From contig JAGVPB010000094.1 in the NCBI GenBank assembly GCA_020052415.1, positions 1-64,000 on the forward strand: a stretch of DNA of 64,000 bases, read 5' to 3'. A program made the position numbers and the translations under genes. Below are positions 6,520-47,835 of this stretch, piece by piece. The notes beneath the pieces are model-generated. The model was not told where the DNA came from and did not search any database. It saw nothing but the letters and a program-made list of their open reading frames with translations. Each line of letters opens with the position of its first letter. The first letter of the stretch is position 1. The stretch comes from Bacteroidales bacterium. GTDB taxonomy: Bacteria; Bacteroidota; Bacteroidia; Bacteroidales; JAADJA01.

Positions 6520-7353
6520 ATGGATTATGTTGAAGTAAATTTTGAGATAAGTCCGCAACCTACGGGAACGGAGATATTGATTGCACTTCTATCACAAATT
6601 GGATATGAAAGCTTCCTGGAAACCGAAAAAGGATTATCGGCCTATATCCCTTCGCAATTATTCGATCACAGCCGGATACACCAGCTGCCGGTCTTCCTGA
6701 CCGATGAATACAAAATAACTTTTAATTACAGGATTATTGAAAGCCATAATTGGAATGAAGTTTGGGAGAAGAATTATGAACCGGTTCTCATAAAAGATTT
6801 GGTCTTTATCCGGGCGCCCTTTCATAGCAAAAATAAAAATGTAAAGTATAATATTTTGATCGAACCTAAGATGTCATTCGGAACAGCGCACCACGAAACA
6901 ACTTCTATGATGATAGAATTGATGCTCGAAGAGAATATGACAGGTAAGTCGGTTCTCGATGCCGGTTGCGGAACAGGAATTCTTTCCATTTTATCAGAAA
7001 TGCTTGGTGCCAGGTTTATTGTTGCCTTCGATATTGATGAATGGGCTTATCAGAATGCTCTCGAAAACGTCAGAAAAAATAAATGCAGGAATATCATCGT
7101 TCAATTAAGTGATTCAGGATTGCTTAAAAATGAAAAATTCGACTTTGTGCTTGCCAATATCAACAGGAATGTACTGCTTGAGGAAATTAAAGTTTACTCC
7201 AAGCACCTTGCACAGGGCGGTATTTTGCTCACAAGCGGATTTTATCCTGACGATCTTGCAAAAATTGAATCAACTGCAAAAGCCTCAGAATTAGCAATGT
7301 ATCAAAACATCGGAAAAAACGACTGGGTTGCTGCCCGGTTTATTAAACGTTAG
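6520..7353 (+). CDS. prmA: Ribosomal protein L11 methyltransferase
   Basis: The 277-residue protein has an N-terminal substrate-recognition domain and a C-terminal class I SAM methyltransferase domain. Visible motifs are the pre-motif FGTAHHETTSMMIELM, motif I DAGCGTGILSI, acidic strand-2 end FDIDEWA, and FVLANINRNVL (the PrmA-type NIN in place of NPPY). It trimethylates ribosomal protein L11 in the cytoplasm. Its TAG stop overlaps by one base the GTG that may start the next gene, so the two are probably cotranscribed. Confidence 0.93.
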   Translation: MDYVEVNFEISPQPTGTEILIALLSQIGYESFLETEKGLSAYIPSQLFDHSRIHQLPVFLTDEYKITFNYRIIESHNWNEVWEKNYEPVLIKDLVFIRAPFHSKNKNVKYNILIEPKMSFGTAHHETTSMMIELMLEENMTGKSVLDAGCGTGILSILSEMLGARFIVAFDIDEWAYQNALENVRKNKCRNIIVQLSDSGLLKNEKFDFVLANINRNVLLEEIKVYSKHLAQGGILLTSGFYPDDLAKIESTAKASELAMYQNIGKNDWVAARFIKR

Positions 7354-10300
7354 TGAAGAACCGGTTCAAAATGCGAATACCTCTCGTTATCTGTTTGGGT
7401 TTGTTTATCATTTCGTGTGGTTCAGGCCTCTATTCCCAGAATATTAAAGAATTTTCAAATGAACAGGATCAGTTTTTCAGTGAACTGAATAACTTATTCG
7501 ACAAGGTCACTGTGAAGGAACAAAAAGATCAGTGCAGGGACATGATGAAAAAATTCACCGAATTCTGGAATACCGGTGTTTTTTCAAAAGAAATCAGGGA
7601 AAATATGAGGGAAACCTGCAACCTGCTTCTCACACGCAGGATGAGAGCCTATCCGGAATTTTACAATTATCTTTCAAGTGTAAATGGTTTAATGGAATTT
7701 GACCATTCCACCGAGAGCTATAATGCATGGCAAAGAAGTGTGGAAAAGGTAGTTTCTGACAAAAGAAGTACAAAGCCACTCACATCCTTTTTGCAAACAA
7801 GCAATGAGTTGATCAATGAAAACGTGTTGTACAGGTCAAATGCAACCGAGTGGAGAACGAGTTCCTATAAATTCGATTTTGTACTTGACTCAGTACCAAA
7901 GGTAATTTTTGAAGAGCTGGATTTGACCTGCTATGCCAATAAAGATAGCTCGGTGATATACAATACTCATGGTACATATTATCCTCTTGATTCAAAATGG
8001 GTGGGCAAAAAGGGAAAAGTAACCTGGGCAAGAGCCGGATTTTATGAAGACGAAGTTCATGCTTTCCTGGAGGATTATGAAATTTATCTTGGATTTTCAA
8101 AATATACTGCCGATTCGGTTAAATTTTTTCATAAAAAATATTGGAACAAAGCGTTATTAGGCAGCCTTGAAGAAAAGTTACTGGCCAATGTAACTTATGA
8201 AAATGCAACTTACCCTGTTTTCAAATCCTATCTTACTGAAATAGCAATTAAAAATGTATTTGAAAATATTGATTTTTCAGGCGGAATTGAAATGCACGGC
8301 AGGAAAATGTTTGGACTCGGAAACAAGGAAAATGATGCCTACCTTTCATTCAAAAAAGATAATAAAGAATTCATTAAAGTTCTTACCAGCAATGTGGTCA
8401 TTTATCCCGACCGAATGTCATCGGCTCTTGCTACCGCTACCATCTCCATTGACAACGATTCGATTTATCATCCCGGTTTGCAAATGAATTACATGGATGC
8501 AGGTAAAGAATTGTCACTGGTAAGGGTGGGTGAAGGAACTTCCAAAAGCCCCTATTACGACTCCTACCATAACATGGATATTTATTCCGAAGCCCTTTAC
8601 TGGAAAATGGATGAACCATTTATTAACTTCGAGTCGGTAAAAGGTACTTCAGCCGAGAGCAAAGCATCCTTCGAATCAAGCAATTACTACACTCTTTCAC
8701 GTTATCTGAAACTTCAGGGAATAGACGAAGTTAATCCACTACTTCTGGTTAAAAGGTACACTGAAAAATATAATGTCAGAGTTATTGGGGTGCAGGCTTT
8801 TGCTGAAGAAATCCTGTTGCCGGCAGAGCAGGTAATTGCAATGATGATCAACCTGGCCAACAAGGGTTTTGTTATCTACGACCGCGATGAAAAAACCGCA
8901 GTTGTTAAAGACAGGTTGTACGATTACATCAATGCAATGAATAAAAAGATTGACTATGATGTTTTGCAGTTTAACTCCGAAACAAGCCGTTTGCAAAATG
9001 CATCTCTTGAACTGGATAGTTTTGGACTGAAGTTAAATGGAGTACCCAAGGTATTTTTAAGCGATTCACAAAATGTTTTTATTTATCCTCAAAATGAGCA
9101 GATTGTTGTAAAAAAAGGAATGGATTTCAGCTTTTCGGGCAGGGTTCACGCAGGTTCGTTCGATTTTTATTCACGCCAGTGCGATTTTAATTATGACCAG
9201 TTCAAACTCGATATGCCGGTTATTGACTCTGTTAGCTTTATGGTTCCAAGCTTTGAACCAAATTCAAACGGTGAAAAATATCCGGTAAAGGTCAAAAGCG
9301 TGATTTCGGATCTTGGCGGAGGCCTTTATATTGATGATCCGAACAATAAATCCGGACTGAAACAATTCCCGCAATACCCGATTTTTAACAGCACTAAAGA
9401 TGCTTACGTGTATTATGATTATCCGTCAATTTTTAATGGTATATATAACCGGGAAAAATTCTTCTTTTATGTATATCCCTTTACGATTGACAGCCTCGAC
9501 AATTTTAAGACTGACCTTCTGGCATTCCCGGGATATCTGGCCTCAGGAGGAATATTTCCGGATATTGAAGACACCCTGAGGGTTCAGCGGGATTACTCTC
9601 TTGGCTTCCAGAAAACCACGCCAATTGATGGGTATCTTGCTTACGGAGGAAAAGGTATTTATTATTCTAATATTGATCTTAGCAATGAAGGATTGCATGG
9701 GAATGGTTCACTTGAATATCTTACCTCAACATCCTGGTCGGATGACTTTATATTTTTTCCCGATTCGTGCAATACAGTCGCAAAGAATTTTGTCATCAAT
9801 GAACAAATTAGTCCCATCGAATATCCGGCAGTAAAAGGAGCCGGTTCCAAACTTCACTGGGATCCTTATGAGAACCGGATGATATTCCAGCAGAAAGAAA
9901 TTCCTTTTGAAATGTTTGGACAACAGTCGAAATTACTGGGAACACTTGTGCTTACACCTCAAAAATTAAACGGAGCCGGTAATATGAGCTTTGAGGATGC
10001 TGAGATGCAATCTAAATTATTCACGTTTAAACAACATGAAATTTTTGCGGATTCGGCTGATTTCAATTTAAAATCCACAAAATATACCCAATCCGCATTC
10101 TCAACTAAGAATTATAATTCACACATTGATTTTAATGAACGTAAAGGTGAGTTTGTTTCGAACGGTGGAGCTTCTGTCGTTGAATTTCCGATCAACCAGT
10201 ACATCTGTTCGATTGATGAATTCGATTGGTTCATGGATTCCTTCGAAATTGCCATTGGCAGCCCTGAAAAAGAAGCTCAGATGGCGAGGTTCAACCATTT

Positions 10301-11858
10301 TCCAATACGAGAACTGGTAGATGTACCGCTGGAGGGTTCCGAGTTTATTTCTATTCACCCCGACCAGGATTCACTGCGGTTTATTTCAACGGTTGCAACC
10401 TATAACCTCAAAGAGTATGTTTTGAATGCCGATGATGTAAAGTACATACGCGTTGCTGATGCCGCAATTTTTCCGGCCGATCATAAAATTGTCATTAATC
10501 CGGGCGCAAAAATGAATACCATTGGCGATGCTCAGATACTCGCCAATACTGTAACCCGTTATCATGAAATTTATGACGCCGTAGTTGACATAAAAGGTAA
10601 AAACAAATATACGGGTATCGGTAATTATGATTATGTGGATGAAAAGGAAGTCAGACAAAAAATATTTCTTAAGGATATTGGCGTAGATCCATCCTTCCAG
10701 ACTGTCGGAAGCGGCTATGTTTCGGATACGACAGGATTTAAGATCAGCGGTGATTTTGATTTCGCGGGAAATATACTGTTATACGCCAACAGGGAATTTC
10801 TCAATTTCGATGGTGGATTCAGGATACAGCACACTTGCAGTGCAGGCCACAGAAGCTGGGTCAGGTTTAATTCGGATATAAATCCTCAGGATATCTATAT
10901 TACGATTACCGATAAACTAACCTCCCTTGAAAAAGACAGCCTTGTTTCAGGCCTGATGTTTTCAAATGAATCAAATCATTTTTATTGCGGATTTCTCACT
11001 CCTCCGGGATCGGCATCTGATCTGGCTGTATTAAGCGCGAATGGGTATATAAGGTATAATAAAGCGGCCGAAATGTATGAAATTGCAAGTCTCGACAGGC
11101 TAAAAGGCCTGACAATGGAAGGAAACCTGTTAACTCTCGCCAGAAAGAATTGTATCCTCTCAGCACAGGGCAAATTTAACCTGGGAGCCGAGTTAGGCCA
11201 GGTTTCCATGTCATCCTATGGAGGTGCAAAACACTATATCATTCCGGATTCCACTAACTTTGACCTTGTCATGACCATTGATTTTCCTTTCGATGATAAA
11301 GCTCTTGGATTAATGGCAGCCGAACTGGAAGAAAAAAACCTTGCAGGAGTTAACCTCGTTCGTCCAGAATTTATTAAAGCTCTTATAGATATGTTGGGTG
11401 AAAAAGAAGCAGACAAAATCATTTCTGACCTGCAGCTTTTTGGTAAATTCAGAAAATACCCTTCCGAGCTTGAGCATACTCTTACATTTTCAGATATAAA
11501 ATTCAAATGGAATTATGCTACCCGGTCTTATATCTCGTATGGACCGATAGGAATCGGTAGTATCGGCAAACAGCAGATCAATAAATATGTGGACGGTTAT
11601 GTAGAAATTGAGAGAAAGCGCACCGGAGACGTGGTAAGTATGTACCTCGAATTTGAAAAAGGGAAATACTGGTATTTCTTTAATTACAGGAATAACCTGA
11701 TGCAAACCATTTCAGCCAATACAGAATACAATACGGTTATTCAGGAACTTAAAGATGAAAAACGCACAAAGAAGGAAACAAAGGAAGGCGAGGAATATAC
11801 TTATATCATTTCTAATCTGCGTAAAAAGACCGATTTCCTGACAAAGATCAAACAATAA
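7353..11858 (+). CDS. Large secreted protein of unknown function (1501 aa)
   Basis: I do not recognise this family. The GTG at 7353 overlaps the prmA stop (TAGTG); an ATG at 7371 is an alternative and also leaves a complete signal sequence, RIPLVICLGLFIISCGSGLYSQ. That sequence could be cut either as a lipoprotein (IISC) or after SQ by signal peptidase I. The rest is a long series of short beta-strand-like segments, rich in aromatic residues and in the pattern D-F-x-x-x, with no membrane helix and no recognisable C-terminal sorting domain. Parts around residues 930-1160 read like the stacked strands of envelope-spanning beta-solenoid or OstA-like proteins, but this is only an impression. plsY begins 14 bp after the stop. 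Location outside the cytoplasm is well supported; function is not. Confidence 0.85.
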   Translation: MKNRFKMRIPLVICLGLFIISCGSGLYSQNIKEFSNEQDQFFSELNNLFDKVTVKEQKDQCRDMMKKFTEFWNTGVFSKEIRENMRETCNLLLTRRMRAYPEFYNYLSSVNGLMEFDHSTESYNAWQRSVEKVVSDKRSTKPLTSFLQTSNELINENVLYRSNATEWRTSSYKFDFVLDSVPKVIFEELDLTCYANKDSSVIYNTHGTYYPLDSKWVGKKGKVTWARAGFYEDEVHAFLEDYEIYLGFSKYTADSVKFFHKKYWNKALLGSLEEKLLANVTYENATYPVFKSYLTEIAIKNVFENIDFSGGIEMHGRKMFGLGNKENDAYLSFKKDNKEFIKVLTSNVVIYPDRMSSALATATISIDNDSIYHPGLQMNYMDAGKELSLVRVGEGTSKSPYYDSYHNMDIYSEALYWKMDEPFINFESVKGTSAESKASFESSNYYTLSRYLKLQGIDEVNPLLLVKRYTEKYNVRVIGVQAFAEEILLPAEQVIAMMINLANKGFVIYDRDEKTAVVKDRLYDYINAMNKKIDYDVLQFNSETSRLQNASLELDSFGLKLNGVPKVFLSDSQNVFIYPQNEQIVVKKGMDFSFSGRVHAGSFDFYSRQCDFNYDQFKLDMPVIDSVSFMVPSFEPNSNGEKYPVKVKSVISDLGGGLYIDDPNNKSGLKQFPQYPIFNSTKDAYVYYDYPSIFNGIYNREKFFFYVYPFTIDSLDNFKTDLLAFPGYLASGGIFPDIEDTLRVQRDYSLGFQKTTPIDGYLAYGGKGIYYSNIDLSNEGLHGNGSLEYLTSTSWSDDFIFFPDSCNTVAKNFVINEQISPIEYPAVKGAGSKLHWDPYENRMIFQQKEIPFEMFGQQSKLLGTLVLTPQKLNGAGNMSFEDAEMQSKLFTFKQHEIFADSADFNLKSTKYTQSAFSTKNYNSHIDFNERKGEFVSNGGASVVEFPINQYICSIDEFDWFMDSFEIAIGSPEKEAQMARFNHFPIRELVDVPLEGSEFISIHPDQDSLRFISTVATYNLKEYVLNADDVKYIRVADAAIFPADHKIVINPGAKMNTIGDAQILANTVTRYHEIYDAVVDIKGKNKYTGIGNYDYVDEKEVRQKIFLKDIGVDPSFQTVGSGYVSDTTGFKISGDFDFAGNILLYANREFLNFDGGFRIQHTCSAGHRSWVRFNSDINPQDIYITITDKLTSLEKDSLVSGLMFSNESNHFYCGFLTPPGSASDLAVLSANGYIRYNKAAEMYEIASLDRLKGLTMEGNLLTLARKNCILSAQGKFNLGAELGQVSMSSYGGAKHYIIPDSTNFDLVMTIDFPFDDKALGLMAAELEEKNLAGVNLVRPEFIKALIDMLGEKEADKIISDLQLFGKFRKYPSELEHTLTFSDIKFKWNYATRSYISYGPIGIGSIGKQQINKYVDGYVEIERKRTGDVVSMYLEFEKGKYWYFFNYRNNLMQTISANTEYNTVIQELKDEKRTKKETKEGEEYTYIISNLRKKTDFLTKIKQ

Positions 11859-12774: not shown

Positions 12775-15700
12775 ATGATAACTCGTAGTACAACAGTTGG
12801 AATTAGAATCTTAAGGTTAGCAATAATCCTTTCAATACTTATTACTGCATCCTTTAACTCATTTAGTCAGCAACAAAATCTTACCGAAGACGATGTAATT
12901 ACAAAGGCCAAATCACTCTTTGAAAAAAAGGACTATCAGGCCGCTTTGCCTTTATATGCGCAACTTGTCAGCGTTCATCCGGAAAATGCGGATTACAATT
13001 TTTACCTGGGTGTGTGTACGCTTTTTGGAGACAGAAAAGACAAGAAAAAGCCAATACGATATCTCAACAATGCAGCTCCTTCAATGAAAGATAATTCAGA
13101 ACTGAATTATTATCTTGGGCTGGCCTATCATCAGAACCAGGAATTTGCCAATGCAATGAAATTCTATAACCAATATTTGTCAAAACTTTCTTCCGGTTCT
13201 TCAGAGCGCCCGCTGATCCTTGAAAAAATAAATGCCTGCCTTAATGGTCTGAATTTGATTGATAAGAATCTCATTTCTGAAATTGTTTCAAGCTCAAAAT
13301 TCCAGAAGGACAATTTTCACAGGGCATATATAGCAGACGATCTCCCCGGATCACTTGTTCTTAAACCCGAAATATTTCAAACAGATAAAGATAAAAAATC
13401 GGGCGAAAACAGTTACGTATTGCTTACACAATCAGCTTCAGTACTATATTATTCAGGATATTCCGGAAACGGCTCTAATGACAGAGAAATTTTTAAAGTG
13501 ACTAAAGATGAAACCGGGGAATATGGAATTCCGGAAAAACTTGACGAAACGATTAATACATCCTTTGATGAGAATTATCCGGTACTAACCGATAACGGAT
13601 CAACATTATATTTTTGTTCAAACGGGCATAATTCTCTAGGAGGCTACGACATTTATCGTTCAAAACTTGATCCAGTAACTAAAAAATTTGCACAGCCGGA
13701 AAATTTGGGCCCTGGTATAAATTCTCCGTTTGATGATATTTTATTTATCATCACAAAAGATAAAGAATATGCCTGGTTTGCTTCCGACAGAGATAATCTT
13801 AACGGCTCAATTACTGTATTTAAAGTAAAACTGATTGAAAATCCATTTAATGAAGGACTTTCAAATGGTTCAGATGCAGAAACCCTGGTTGCTGATTTAC
13901 AATCTGATATCACCGGAACCATCACTAATAACAATGGAAATAAACCAAATCAGAATGAAACGGCCATTAAGGGAACATCAGATAACCGTTCTGATCCTTC
14001 AAAAAAGGGAAGTAACCTGGTAAACGACCGTACAAAATCCGCAATATTGACTGATTCTGTTTTCACCATAATTGCAAACGCCAAAGATCTTATACGCGAA
14101 CTGACGAATAAGAGGGACCGTGCCAATTCTATTTCGCAAAGGAAAAGCAGTGAAGCTAAAGAACTCGAACTTCGTTTTGAAGCTGAAATTTCTGCTTTGG
14201 CCATGATAGAAAATAAGACTGAATTCGAGGTTGAACTCGAAAAAACCATCAAGCTAAAGGAAGAAATACTTCAGCTTCATCAACGCTCGGATCAGGCAAA
14301 TAAAATAGCGTGGATACTTGGTAACCAAATCAAATTCAAAAATGAAGAATTGATTGTACTCAAAAACTCTGCAGCAAAAATTCAGAGCATTTCACTTACG
14401 GGGAGCTTTGAGGAAACACTGGTTCTTTATACCGGGTTTATCAATCAAAAACAAACCAGCGACACACTTAAAGACTATTCAAGTCAACTTATTTCGATTA
14501 CCAACAATGAAGTTAATTTCGACCTGCCTGAAAGTGAGTTTGCATATGCAGAGAACTTAAAAAAGGCTTTTAACAACCACACATTGCTGGCGGAAGTAAA
14601 AAATCAAAAACCTGTTGTGAATGAAAACATCCCGATAGTTGTTGTAGATAAAAGAACCAATATAGAGGATAGTAATGCAATTCAAAAAACTCCAGTAAAT
14701 AACCTGTGCGTACCAATAGCGCTTGTTGAACCGGTTATTTATAAAATGCCGGATTTGCTGAGTAGTGTAATCTCCGGTGAACAACTTATGATCAGTTTCT
14801 ATCAGGACAATACAATGGACCCATTCGCTTTGGTGCAGCCTGTTCAATACCAAAATATGGAGTCATCAAATTATCAACCCATTGAAATCAATTTGGAAAT
14901 CCGGTTCACAGCAGATCAATTATCCCCGAAGGACCTAAAACCCGTTATCCATCCTGTTTATCTTAATGAATTGGCATATAATACCTTGCCTATTGAAACC
15001 GGATTAGACGTCAGCTTTATCGCGGATCAGGTCGTTCCTGAAAAGATTATACAGCCGGTTTTTGCGAACATAATGACCTACAGCAACCTCACAGAAACAG
15101 AAACTCTTGAAATTAGCTTTACGGTTGATAAGCCAGCAGGAATAGAAAGCCTTAAACTCGTTGAACCTGTCTATTCAAAGAGCTTTAACTATGCAGCTCT
15201 TGGGACGGATGAACCTATTGAAATAAATTTCAATGCAGATAAAGCTTTGGCAAAAGACATAAAAGCCTTAATTGATCCCGTTTTTCTGAATTCAATTGCA
15301 TTCAATACACTTCCGTCTGATCCTCTTTTGGAAATTAATTTCTTCGCTGATCAGGTCATTCCCGAAGGAGTTGTAAAGCCGGTTCTGATGAGCCTGTATT
15401 TAAAGGATCCGACTGAAAAGGAGGAACTGGAGATCAGTTTCAATATTGATAAACCTGAACAAATTGAAGCAATTAAAAATATTGAGCCTGTGTATTCAGT
15501 TGAATTTGCTGATAACAGACTCGTTTTAGAACAAGACCTTGAGATTGAGTTTAGCGTTGATAAGGTTCAGGATGATCAGGTACTTGCATTGATCGAGCCG
15601 GTTTATGTTACAAATTATACCGAGAATAACAAATTAGATGAATTGCAACTTGAATTAAATTTCTTTGCCGACCAGGTTAATCCGGTTAATATAATATATC

Positions 15701-16950
15701 CGATCGCGATGAATTACGACTCCAATTTTCATCTCCCTGATCCGGAAGACCTGGAAGTCAGTAATTCAAAAGACGATTTCATTGCAGTTAAAAGCATCAG
15801 AATAGTTGAACCGGTCATGACAAGTGAGTTGTCCAGTACCTATTTGATACCGGATGAAAATCTCGAAATCAATTTCAATGCAGATGGAACAGAAGCGATC
15901 AAATTGGTAAGTCCTGTGATTTACACAAATTATACTTCAATTAATAACCTCAATATAGATAGCTCACCGGAAATTCGTTTCACTGTTGACCAGCCTGCAA
16001 TAAATGAGTCTGTTGCTCAGAATAATGTTATTAGTAATGAACCGGTGTCCTTTTTGGAAACCTCAGCAAATGTCGTGGAAATAATTGTTCCGCAAATTGT
16101 AGAAGCCATTACTTATGCAAGCGGTAATGAATACTTTGACTCAATAGAGCCAACGATTGAAATCAGGCATGATATAGATCAGACAATAGAAATACTTCCT
16201 GTGATTGATGCAATCGCCTGGAAAGTTCCGTCCGGAATTAATTTCAGCGCTGATGAAGAAATTGAAATTACATTTTCAACTGATGTTATACCTCAAACAA
16301 AAGGGAAAGTAATCGTAAATCCCGACCTGGCCACAAATGACAATACACCTGAGTATCCGTCAAAGGAAGTAACAGATAAGTCATCACAAACGGGGGAACT
16401 AACAACGACTCAAGCCTTTTATCTCAGGGCATCCATACTACAATCGAAAACAATCGAAACAAGCAAATCAGACAATGAACTTCTTGAAAATGCGCTTAGC
16501 AATCCCGATGAACTGAGCTATGAAGAATTATTATATGCTGCAAGCCTCGCGACCAAACCATCAGATAAGCTGGCAATCTATAATGTTGCTTTTGTACATG
16601 TGGACAGGGACTGGCGCGCATTTAACAATGCATCTGTTTCTGCTATCCAATCAGAGAACCTGAATCAGGCTGACTGTTATTTATTCCAGGCCTCTCTTTT
16701 ATCCAGCGACAATCCTCAAATTAAAAATAATATGGGCATTCTGGCCTGTCATCAAAAGGACTATACACAGGCTGAGGAATATTTCATAGCAGCCAGTACT
16801 CTTGGATATGATGCCCGGTACAATTTACAGGTAGTCAATAGCCTTGAAAAACAAAACGATGGTAATAGTTCAGGTGGCGACATTATAGATATATCAAATT
16901 CAAATGATATCATTGTTGAAATAATTGACTATAGTCCAGTAATTAAATAG
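12775..16950 (+). CDS. Secreted TPR/PD40 protein with long 36-aa repeat array
   Basis: This 1391-residue protein has a signal peptide (ILRLAIILSILITASFNSFSQ, cut near residue 32), two or three TPR units (about 38-155), a PD40-like beta-propeller segment (about 223-352, with SLGGYDIYRSKL and WFASDRDN), a charged coiled coil (about 440-535), an unusual repeat array (649-1173), and a second TPR pair (about 1263-1370). The start of the protein resembles PorE/OmpA-type envelope proteins of Bacteroidota, but there is no OmpA domain. The array has about 14 units of 34-38 residues. Each has a PV(Y/F) element, about 20 variable residues and a LEI-x-F-x-x-D(K/Q) element, and units recur in blocks of three. 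Function is unknown; an envelope scaffold or ligand-binding role would be inference. A 275-bp gap without a gene precedes it. Confidence 0.85.
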   Translation: MITRSTTVGIRILRLAIILSILITASFNSFSQQQNLTEDDVITKAKSLFEKKDYQAALPLYAQLVSVHPENADYNFYLGVCTLFGDRKDKKKPIRYLNNAAPSMKDNSELNYYLGLAYHQNQEFANAMKFYNQYLSKLSSGSSERPLILEKINACLNGLNLIDKNLISEIVSSSKFQKDNFHRAYIADDLPGSLVLKPEIFQTDKDKKSGENSYVLLTQSASVLYYSGYSGNGSNDREIFKVTKDETGEYGIPEKLDETINTSFDENYPVLTDNGSTLYFCSNGHNSLGGYDIYRSKLDPVTKKFAQPENLGPGINSPFDDILFIITKDKEYAWFASDRDNLNGSITVFKVKLIENPFNEGLSNGSDAETLVADLQSDITGTITNNNGNKPNQNETAIKGTSDNRSDPSKKGSNLVNDRTKSAILTDSVFTIIANAKDLIRELTNKRDRANSISQRKSSEAKELELRFEAEISALAMIENKTEFEVELEKTIKLKEEILQLHQRSDQANKIAWILGNQIKFKNEELIVLKNSAAKIQSISLTGSFEETLVLYTGFINQKQTSDTLKDYSSQLISITNNEVNFDLPESEFAYAENLKKAFNNHTLLAEVKNQKPVVNENIPIVVVDKRTNIEDSNAIQKTPVNNLCVPIALVEPVIYKMPDLLSSVISGEQLMISFYQDNTMDPFALVQPVQYQNMESSNYQPIEINLEIRFTADQLSPKDLKPVIHPVYLNELAYNTLPIETGLDVSFIADQVVPEKIIQPVFANIMTYSNLTETETLEISFTVDKPAGIESLKLVEPVYSKSFNYAALGTDEPIEINFNADKALAKDIKALIDPVFLNSIAFNTLPSDPLLEINFFADQVIPEGVVKPVLMSLYLKDPTEKEELEISFNIDKPEQIEAIKNIEPVYSVEFADNRLVLEQDLEIEFSVDKVQDDQVLALIEPVYVTNYTENNKLDELQLELNFFADQVNPVNIIYPIAMNYDSNFHLPDPEDLEVSNSKDDFIAVKSIRIVEPVMTSELSSTYLIPDENLEINFNADGTEAIKLVSPVIYTNYTSINNLNIDSSPEIRFTVDQPAINESVAQNNVISNEPVSFLETSANVVEIIVPQIVEAITYASGNEYFDSIEPTIEIRHDIDQTIEILPVIDAIAWKVPSGINFSADEEIEITFSTDVIPQTKGKVIVNPDLATNDNTPEYPSKEVTDKSSQTGELTTTQAFYLRASILQSKTIETSKSDNELLENALSNPDELSYEELLYAASLATKPSDKLAIYNVAFVHVDRDWRAFNNASVSAIQSENLNQADCYLFQASLLSSDNPQIKNNMGILACHQKDYTQAEEYFIAASTLGYDARYNLQVVNSLEKQNDGNSSGGDIIDISNSNDIIVEIIDYSPVIK

Positions 16951-20716: not shown

Positions 20717-21019
20717 CTAAATAATTTCAATTCCATGTTTCCTTATTTCATCAATAAACCCACTTTTGTCATTATTTTTTTCAATTAATATCGGTTCAAT
20801 ACGGTGGTCAATTTGACGTCGTAATTTCCAGATTAGAGGTGTGGTTTTAAAATAATCATCGGATAAATATTTGACCACAATGGCAACATCAATATCACTA
20901 TCTGCTCTGCTGGCATCCCTCGCATACGAACCAAACAAAAAAACCTGGTCAAGATCGAAATGTTCCTGAAGAAGCAATTTATATTGACGAACTATATTTA
21001 TAACTTCACTTTTATCCAT
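20717..21019 (-). CDS. Minimal nucleotidyltransferase (MNT/MntA-like)
   Basis: The 100-residue protein is a minimal pol-beta-type nucleotidyltransferase. The active-site pattern is G30-S31 followed by D42-I-D44 (FLFGSYARDASRADSDIDVAIV), with a further acidic residue in HRIEPILIE. In studied HEPN-MNT modules the MNT partner adenylylates or otherwise neutralises the HEPN RNase, forming a toxin-antitoxin pair. Its start overlaps the end of the HEPN gene by 22 bp, so the two are translationally coupled. The pair sits alone between phoH and a divergent DUF62 gene. Module identity is firm; toxicity is not shown. Confidence 0.9.
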   Translation of the reverse strand: MDKSEVINIVRQYKLLLQEHFDLDQVFLFGSYARDASRADSDIDVAIVVKYLSDDYFKTTPLIWKLRRQIDHRIEPILIEKNNDKSGFIDEIRKHGIEII

Positions 21020-21384
21020 TTTTGTAATTTAGTAGTTTCATTCAATATTTCATCGCATTTATTTTTGGTCAGGCTTTTAAGTAGCTTATCCTTATGAGCC
21101 GGATACCTGGCTTCAATGTTTAACGGTTCAATTTGATCAATAAAACTTTTTTGATCTTCACTAAACTCGTGATAAAATCCACCCTTATTTGCCAGATGTG
21201 ATAGGCTATGAGAGAATGGAGGTGTTTCATTATTTAATTTTATGAAGTATGCTTTAAATATTTTTTCAATTGTTTGGTGACACATAAAGCCAACATATAA
21301 ATATCGTTTGCTCTTTTGCATAGCTATGGCTGTTTCTAAATCGTAATCCGATAAATCAAGCCAGTATTTTAATCTTTCATCCAT
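20998..21384 (-). CDS. HEPN domain protein, partner of MNT
   Basis: The 128-residue all-alpha protein has the HEPN start WLDLSDYDLETAIAMQKSKRYLYVGFMCHQTIEKIFKAYF and the later R93-Y-P-A-H97 segment typical of the family. The classical catalytic pattern of RNase HEPN toxins is R followed after 4-6 residues by H. Here R93 and H97 are separated by only three, and R27 and H36 by eight, so RNase activity is uncertain. It comes first in the two-gene operon and its last 22 bp overlap the nucleotidyltransferase gene. It could be a toxin, or a member of the non-toxic HEPN-MNT pairs. Confidence 0.88.
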   Translation of the reverse strand: MDERLKYWLDLSDYDLETAIAMQKSKRYLYVGFMCHQTIEKIFKAYFIKLNNETPPFSHSLSHLANKGGFYHEFSEDQKSFIDQIEPLNIEARYPAHKDKLLKSLTKNKCDEILNETTKLQKWIKVKL

Positions 21385-45894: not shown

Positions 45895-47835
45895 TCATTC
45901 GATCACTTTAAACTCCGTCCTCCGGTTAATCGCCCTGCCTTCTTCTGTATCGTTCGAATCAACAGGTTGTGTTTCACCATAACCTTTATAAGATATTCTG
46001 GAAGGTTCGATTTTATTTTCGACGAGATAGTCTTTTACCGATTTGGCGCGGTTTTGCGAAAGCATAATATTGTATTCATGAGTACCGACATTATCGGTGT
46101 GACCCCCGATCTCTATCTTAAGCAAGGGATTTTTCTGAAGCAGGATAATAAGTTTGTTGAGTTCTATCCTTGAAGTTTCGATAAGTTCATATTGGTTGGT
46201 TTCGAAAAAAATGTTTTTCATTACCACTTTTGCTCCTGTTTTCAACGGTTCCATCGGGACATCCTTAAGCACAGGATCAGTGGATGAATTTTCGTTGGTG
46301 AGGCTGAAATTTTCTGAAAAAAACAAATAACCATCCCGGGAAACAGTGAGTGCGTAGTCGTTGTTGGCCGGAAGGCAAACCAGGAATTCGCCGGAAGATT
46401 TATTTGAAAAAGATTCAATGGCAACGATTCCTGTTTTGAGGTTGGTGAGTTCAAACCTTGCTTCAAGGTTTTCACCGCTTTCCCTGTCAAAAACGCGCCC
46501 CTTCATATAACTCACTACCTGTGGCCGGACTTCTTCGTAGAGGTCAAAGGCATACAAGTCGAGTCCTCCAAACCCATCCTTACGGTCGGAGGCAAACATG
46601 GCAAGTTCACCGTTTGCACTGATCATAATACTATTATCATCCTTATAGGAATTGATAGGATAACCAAGATTTTGCGGCTGTCCCCAGTTTCCTGTACTAT
46701 CTCTTCTGGAAATAAAAATATCCAGACTGCCCATACCGGTATGACCGTTTGAAGAAAAATAAAGGGTTTGATTATCGGGATGGATGAAAACGGAACCTTC
46801 ATAACCTTCTGTATTGATATTGATACCAAGTTTTATGGGTTCGCACCAGATACCCGAATCATTGACTGCCGAATACCAGATGTCATAATTATTGTCGCGG
46901 TTGCTCACAAAATAGAGGGTTCTGCCATCGGAGGAGAAGGACGGTTGCGACTCCCAAAGCTTTGAGTTGACCGGCACACCAAGATTGTAGGGTACCTGCC
47001 AGTCATTACCCGATCTCTTCGAAACGAAAAGGTCGCACCTGCCGAAGCCTTCCCTGTCGTTTCCATACCCATCCAGGCTTTCACATGCGGTAAATATCAG
47101 AGTATTGCCGTCGGCTGAAAGTGTAGGAGCGCCTTCATTATAGGTGGTGTTTATAGGAAGGCCAAGCCCTGTGGCAGGGTTCCATACCGAGTCGTACCGG
47201 CTGACAAAGAAATCTTCCTGTCTGCCGCTGGGTGAACGTGGATCCTTTAAAAGTCTTGTGAATAAAAGTGTCTGATTATCGGCTGTAATACATGGAAAAT
47301 ATTCATTCAGGCTGGTGTTAATGTTCGCACCAAGGTTTACCGGATTGAATGGAACCGGATTTTTTATTGCTTCAATGGCAAATTCACAATCAGGAAGGTT
47401 TTTTTCAGCCCTGACTCTTGCAGCGCCATGAGCACCTTCGGAACCAAGGTACTGTTTATAATGTTCACGGGCTCCTTCGTACCATCCATTTCTGAATTCA
47501 ATATCGGCCATAAACGAGAAAGCAGCCGGAAACCTGTTGGGATCAATGGTAACAGCCTTTTTATAGATTGATACTGCAGCAGAGTCATTTCTTTCCTGTT
47601 CGAGGATTTCACCAAGTAACATATATGCCTCAAAGAAGGAAGGATCAGCATCAATAGCAGACTCAAAATTCGATTTTGCACCTGTCAGGTTTTCCTGTTT
47701 ATATAGAAGTTCGCCGGTTTCGTAATATTTACGAGCCTTTTTTGATTGGGTAGATAGCTCCTCACCCTGGGAAATTACTAACGTCGGAACCAATAAAAAC
47801 AAAATAAAAAGACTACAAAAATTTTTAGTATGCAT
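45895..47835 (-). CDS. OmpA-family protein with TPR, PD40 propeller and carboxypeptidase-D-like domains
   Basis: The 646-residue protein has a signal peptide (FCSLFILFLLVPTLVISQ), TPR units (about 30-130), and a PD40 beta-propeller (about 170-435, with repeated TLYFSSNGHTGMGSLDIF and MFASDRKDGFGGLDLYAF). It continues with a carboxypeptidase-regulatory-like domain (about 440-520) and a C-terminal OmpA domain (about 535-646: IEIGGHTDNVGTHEYNIMLSQNRAKSVKDYL), which binds peptidoglycan. This is the domain order of PorE-type proteins that anchor type IX secretion complexes, although OmpA-PD40 paralogs with other roles are common. It follows queE by 35 bp. Confidence 0.92.
   Translation of the reverse strand: MHTKNFCSLFILFLLVPTLVISQGEELSTQSKKARKYYETGELLYKQENLTGAKSNFESAIDADPSFFEAYMLLGEILEQERNDSAAVSIYKKAVTIDPNRFPAAFSFMADIEFRNGWYEGAREHYKQYLGSEGAHGAARVRAEKNLPDCEFAIEAIKNPVPFNPVNLGANINTSLNEYFPCITADNQTLLFTRLLKDPRSPSGRQEDFFVSRYDSVWNPATGLGLPINTTYNEGAPTLSADGNTLIFTACESLDGYGNDREGFGRCDLFVSKRSGNDWQVPYNLGVPVNSKLWESQPSFSSDGRTLYFVSNRDNNYDIWYSAVNDSGIWCEPIKLGININTEGYEGSVFIHPDNQTLYFSSNGHTGMGSLDIFISRRDSTGNWGQPQNLGYPINSYKDDNSIMISANGELAMFASDRKDGFGGLDLYAFDLYEEVRPQVVSYMKGRVFDRESGENLEARFELTNLKTGIVAIESFSNKSSGEFLVCLPANNDYALTVSRDGYLFFSENFSLTNENSSTDPVLKDVPMEPLKTGAKVVMKNIFFETNQYELIETSRIELNKLIILLQKNPLLKIEIGGHTDNVGTHEYNIMLSQNRAKSVKDYLVENKIEPSRISYKGYGETQPVDSNDTEEGRAINRRTEFKVIE

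Follow-up and report, generated by a model that had tools for sequence, protein, structure and literature searches.

A length-variable repeat array joins a TPR–PD40 head to a TPR end in a secreted protein of one Bacteroidales genus

The window analyzed here, a stretch of 64,000 nucleotides from a Bacteroidales genome (4.67 Mb in 94 contigs), encodes a repeat protein whose middle is occupied by a tandem array of diverged units. As far as sequence searches of Pfam, NCBIfam and PDB show, the repeat is undescribed and the protein that carries it is of a known kind; the array adds a repeat family absent from the libraries searched. On our best reading, it would serve as a genus-specific spacer or docking array that leads from a scaffold head to a TPR end, a function that we infer. 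Our tentatively favored account, to which we give not quite an even chance, is that the protein is a secreted, probably periplasmic envelope scaffold with a length-variable, beta-prone spacer as its middle.

The gene (12775..16950, + strand, as are all the features of this paragraph) is an ORF of 1391 aa with orthologues in 16/16 same-genus relatives. It opens with a probable N-terminal signal peptide, residues 1 to ~32 (12775..12870), in which a reading of the sequence finds no lipobox cysteine. The N-terminal TPRs at residues 43–135 (12901..13179; Pfam TPR_16 and TPR_2, over cut-off) are followed by a PD40 beta-propeller repeat at residues 260–295 (13552..13659; Pfam PD40, 9.2e-8). An AlphaFold2 model of residues 200–1391 (1192 residues, 23 rows) places propeller-like strands at ~215–354 around this repeat (pLDDT of the block 44–80). 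The same model gives the helices (model positions 209–276 and 282–343; block pLDDT mostly 75–93) of a conserved long helical pair at residues 408–542 (13996..14400), which is also marked by the conserved columns of alignment A2. The array then begins with a degenerate leading copy, LMISFYQD at residue 671 (14785..14892), found by motif scan and coinciding with a low-confidence strand at 671–676. The core array, ten units of 34–37 residues with a three-unit super-period (residues 707–1065; 14893..15969), was delimited by profile matches and permutation tests. Degenerate trailing copies with motifs at 1065, 1128 and 1163 (15970..16293) come from the motif scan and two weak profile matches. The C-terminal TPR domain, residues 1214–1360 (16414..16854; Pfam TPR, AlphaFold2 pLDDT mostly 87–94), precedes a tail of low AlphaFold2 confidence that ends in EIIDYSPVIK (16855..16947); GDIIDY recurs in the tails of 7 of the 16 C-termini compared. 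The best Pfam stretches of the protein are the N-terminal TPRs, the one PD40 and the C-terminal TPR, with nothing between residues 296 and 1316.

A preliminary description had counted about 14 units in residues 649–1173, and a loose LEI-x-F-x-x-D motif is indeed found 14 times between residues 671 and 1163; a 15th match, at residue 1371, lies outside the array. Weaker copies flank the ten clear units on both sides, those past residue ~1065 being much weaker than the core. A unit profile trained on 82 anchor-to-anchor units, taken from the window protein as well as from its orthologues (consensus LEINFTIDQIEPIKLVEPVNYNELAFNTIIPEEE), returned ten strong units (residues 707–1057) and two weak ones (domain E < 0.5). 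Because the window units sat in this training set, a leave-out profile was built from 73 units of other genomes only. It recovered nine window units at domain E < 0.003 and the tenth at 0.1, and its full score for the window protein, 110.4 bits, compares with a maximum of 8.6 in 200 shuffles of residues 641–1180. The units are thus homologous beyond composition, as had been supposed. Conservation is highest at the D, E and I of LEI-x-F-x-x-D and at the V/I of the PV position (99 unit rows from the genus), while the P of the PV motif is found in 39 of 97 unit rows.

No named domain had been recognized for the unit, and none emerged from the Pfam, NCBIfam and PDB sequence searches at a credible level. 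NCBIfam gave nothing for residues 649–1173 up to E 0.1, and Pfam nothing for the window array stretch. Applied to the 31 members of alignment A3, Pfam returned 34 families at E up to 1, and each of the 25 listed occurred in at most three members (best E 0.0011). The best hit in a PDB profile search of the units was an acyl carrier protein, at E 0.032. Keyword searches of the open-licence literature brought up nothing that we recognized as describing the array. Carriage by phage was unsupported, the array having no match in phage records. Tandem Repeats Finder reported nothing inside the window array, since the units are too diverged.

The proposed second period of three units stood up to permutation. 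With unit borders set by hand, the excess similarity at lags 3, 6 and 9 was reached by 7 of 20,000 permutations of unit order; with borders set by the profile, by 5 of 4,000. The mean pairwise score among the ten units was 68 at lag 3 and 53 at lag 6, compared to 37–43 at lags 1, 2, 4 and 5. At the DNA level, self-comparison up to E = 1 yielded eight non-trivial pairs, five of them offset by 321–336 or 645 bases (3 or 6 units) and mostly short and weak; two of the remaining pairs are 432 bases apart (4 units) and one 903. Permutation tests and DNA offsets together support the suggested history, in which a single unit multiplied and a three-unit block was duplicated later. None of the nine other array rows reaches 5% for a period of three, and the three-unit block is best read as a duplication in the window lineage. 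Two of these rows, G005 (332/4,000) and G002 (265/4,000), lean toward a period of two, both short of 5%. A structural cause, with three units per turn, was judged unlikely, as none of the nine rows reaches 5%. The restriction of the period to the window lineage among the ten array rows tested, together with the strong divergence of the units, would also fit a nearly neutral filler, a repeat expansion tolerated in a linker without a selected role. The motif positions that are conserved over the 99 genus unit rows speak against such a filler, and we consider it improbable.

The distribution of the array is narrow. All 60 genomes searched (the window's own and 59 relatives) match the repeat protein somewhere, and among the matches listed from outside the genus none falls within residues 660–1180; an initial whole-protein scan of genome contigs had found no relative. 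Among 295 genomes of the order, a four-unit profile detects the array in 4, which all belong to the same genus and include two with short arrays; among 395 genomes of the phylum it detects it in 1, the window's own (the two samples may overlap). At a loose cut-off (domain E < 0.5), unit matches occur in 17/17 genomes of the genus, from 1–3 per genome in short-array species up to 16 in G002, some counts being reduced by contig ends. Homologous arrays of varying unit number in other Bacteroidota had been named as support for a new repeat family; related arrays of different length do occur in other genomes, in the samples searched only within one genus.

The middle segment, measured with the linker residues on either side of the array, spans 206–716 residues between species (9 rows, CV 0.49), whereas the N-terminal part spans 509–531 residues (14 rows, CV 0.014) and the C-terminal part 129–148 (15 rows, CV 0.038). 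The nine-row set leaves out the G012 paralogue; no length could be taken from proteins truncated at a contig end or lacking an anchor, among them that of G010, which is complete and missed the C-terminal anchor. In a tree of the N-terminal part, the short-array species group together (90/85), as do the long-array species (88/97); these supports are moderate, G001 and G005 entered as untrimmed rows, and a program warning flagged long branches that meet. With the short-array species forming one group, the large difference in length may reflect one or two events, a point against the spacer reading. In the array of G001 single units have been duplicated, giving a 105-bp tandem of 2.5 copies with 89% matches; Tandem Repeats Finder reported no array tandem in G003. 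The array of G002 (L047:1876–5208, − strand) holds a stretch of ~20 residues, near protein residue 665, that is not unit-like. Short contigs often break at the repeat-protein gene, which serves as a warning: the N-terminal contig stops in the array or at its start in 7 of 16 relatives. Where the two contig pieces were compared, in six genomes, the ends were identical in G001 (127 bases) and G003 (64 bases), matched at 87.5% over 104 bases in G005, and shared nothing in G007, G013 and G009.

An adjustable envelope spacer is suggested because the array varies more than threefold in length while both ends stay nearly constant. On this account the array would set the distance from the scaffold head to the C-terminal TPR, and extension would count for more than one fixed task per unit. 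If the tether reading is true, unit number would be a natural handle on the reach of an envelope scaffold. The pattern recalls the Periscope proteins (SasG, Rib, Sgo_0707), for which PMC8201768 describes a variable-number tandem array between fixed ends. Those are proteins of the cell surface, and their repeats are folded and highly identical. In the same way, a middle of 206–716 residues lies here between near-constant ends, with the variation found between species. A Periscope-type surface stalk, projecting a head from the cell, might accordingly be entertained by analogy, since its arrangement in that source is the same. It is a very improbable reading: the family matches include no surface-sorting domain, the head modules look like those of envelope scaffolds, and units as diverged as those of the window would not recombine easily. 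Unlike Periscope repeats, the window units are diverged enough to draw no report from Tandem Repeats Finder, and G001 shows the 89% tandem; AlphaFold2 gives the units no confident fold.

Structure prediction was less decisive for the array than for its flanks. AlphaFold2 on four units (31 rows) gave a pLDDT of 45 and zero strands; alignment A1, whose overlapping stretches shifted the register, was excluded from folding. In the 1192-residue model the array has pLDDT values of 25–43, compared to those of the flanking domains given above. A strand at the LEI motif appears there in eight of the ten core units (all but units 9 and 10), and four of the ten have a further strand past the PV motif, so that strands recur every ~36 residues at pLDDT < 50, with none in the four-unit model. 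The uniform beta-solenoid or bead-like fold that had been envisaged is not supported by these models. Since they contradict each other and both are of low confidence, a folded rod is possible rather than demonstrated, and the lack of a confident array structure counts against the spacer reading. In the proposed mechanism, the core of each unit would be a two-strand element, PV-x-(Y/F)...LEI-x-F-x-x-D. The top 50 Foldseek matches of the model were TPR domains or TPR-containing chains, many of them CHIP/STUB1 or designed TPRs. They were assigned to the C-terminal TPR because the N-terminal TPR lies outside that model. This domain may dock a peptide, as the TPRs of CHIP/STUB1 do; the matches reflect the general TPR fold and do not prove peptide binding here.

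The low confidence of the models bears on a further alternative. The array might be a multivalent docking array, in which the units are short linear motifs, largely disordered alone, that each supply a partner envelope protein with an extra beta strand, their number setting avidity. The very low AlphaFold2 confidence over the array is as this alternative predicts, as are a short conserved motif amid variable surroundings, an excess of acidic (17%) over basic (5%) residues, and a paralogue (L051, below) that retains two cores in long linkers. Yet the array, which is acidic, hydrophobic and poor in glycine, differs from a typical disordered linker and falls on the ordered side of the charge-hydropathy line together with 17 of 22 other array rows; the five on the disordered side are short or partial. 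No partner protein is known either. We regard the docking array as possible, with considerable doubt, and the spacer as the preferred reading.

The N-terminal modules had been described as those of PorE-type envelope anchors. The description is a loose one. The order of TPR and PD40 agrees with it: in PorE of Porphyromonas gingivalis, a protein of type IX secretion, and in CHU_0125, a TPR is likewise followed by a PD40/WD40 propeller in an exported protein. The family profiles do not extend the likeness further. NCBIfam PorE (NF052230) scored 67.7 bits vs a cut-off of 600 and CHU_0125 84 bits vs 620, each over part of the N-terminal half only, and membership in PorE was rejected on the former score. 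The PorE domain set, as given in PMC7192894, comprises the TPR, the PD40/WD40 propeller, a CRD, an OmpA_C-like C-terminus and an acylated N-terminal cysteine. Unlike PorE, the repeat protein has no CRD or OmpA_C-like match in Pfam or NCBIfam and ends in a TPR, and, unlike the PorE lipoprotein, it has no cysteine near the end of the signal peptide on reading the sequence. A SPOR or OmpA end was likewise rejected, with no such Pfam or NCBIfam match. The window also encodes, at 45895–47835 (− strand), a full-length TPR-PD40-OmpA protein, whose best NCBIfam scores, CHU_0125 at 311 bits and PorE at 278, lie below 620 and 600. The host genome has five over-cut-off matches to the PorP/SprF family of type IX secretion.

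Relatives of the protein help to define the unit and its surroundings. The G012 paralogue (L051:4531–6891, − strand) has the same TPR-PD40 head, long linkers and a short TPR end. It carries two isolated unit cores 55 residues apart, with domain E of 0.0013 and 0.036 (best of 100 shuffles, 0.83), a spacing which suggests that the unit core spans PV to LEI-x-F-x-x-D rather than LEI to LEI. Two proteins of the window's own genome, L052 and L053, have a C-terminal TPR module homologous to that of the repeat protein (40% identity to part of L052, 36% for L053). They have no array and no match to its N-terminal half; an OmpA-like part was recognized in them by eye, with a weak NCBIfam match in L052 only, and L053 has a Pfam beta-barrel match.

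In other families of the order, eight TPR-PD40-helical-repeat proteins have a homologous N-terminal half (28–39% identity) and, as in the repeat protein, a repetitive middle of very variable length. Unlike the array, these middles were judged by eye to be helical and coiled-coil-like, and none of the eight contains a unit match. Pfam SPOR was over cut-off in two of them (L061 and L064) and just below it in L049, SPOR-like ends were seen by eye only in L048, L060 and L062, and Pfam OmpA was found in none of the eight. The same place appears, from sequence comparison, to be filled by helical repeats in the sister families. The sister proteins are put at that place as best hits, and synteny backs this for G028 alone, whose version of the protein is cut by a contig end. 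A bolder proposal is that a new two-strand repeat family of one genus replaced the helical spacer of an envelope TPR-propeller protein, giving a length-adjustable tether with a peptide-docking TPR end; taken as a whole we think this rather unlikely. If it is true, sister lineages would have met one mechanical task with different types of repeat. The repeat protein is a possible case of an envelope protein in whose spacer beta-prone repeats took over from helical ones, with lengths then diverging among species.

The neighborhood of the gene is partly conserved. Upstream, at 7353–11858 (+ strand), lies a secreted protein of 1501 aa, for which Pfam gives nothing over cut-off and NCBIfam nothing at all. 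Of the 60 genomes searched, counting its own, 47 have it, spread over many families of the order; it is a widely conserved family with function unassigned. Of 16 same-genus loci, 14 have its counterpart of about 1500 residues directly before the repeat-protein gene or separated from it by PlsY, the latter in 10. Coordinates put it ahead of the repeat-protein gene in G002 as well, and ~6 kb upstream in G014. Downstream of the 1500-residue gene in other families, 11 stretches, some short at contig ends, gave no repeat-protein match, which speaks against wider synteny. G028, which belongs to another family, keeps the order of this gene and a repeat-protein homologue, with no unit match in the 1014 residues before the contig end. 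Elsewhere in the window, an overlapping pair of small ORFs at 20717–21384 (− strand) resembles a nucleotidyltransferase/HEPN (MNT-HEPN) pair.
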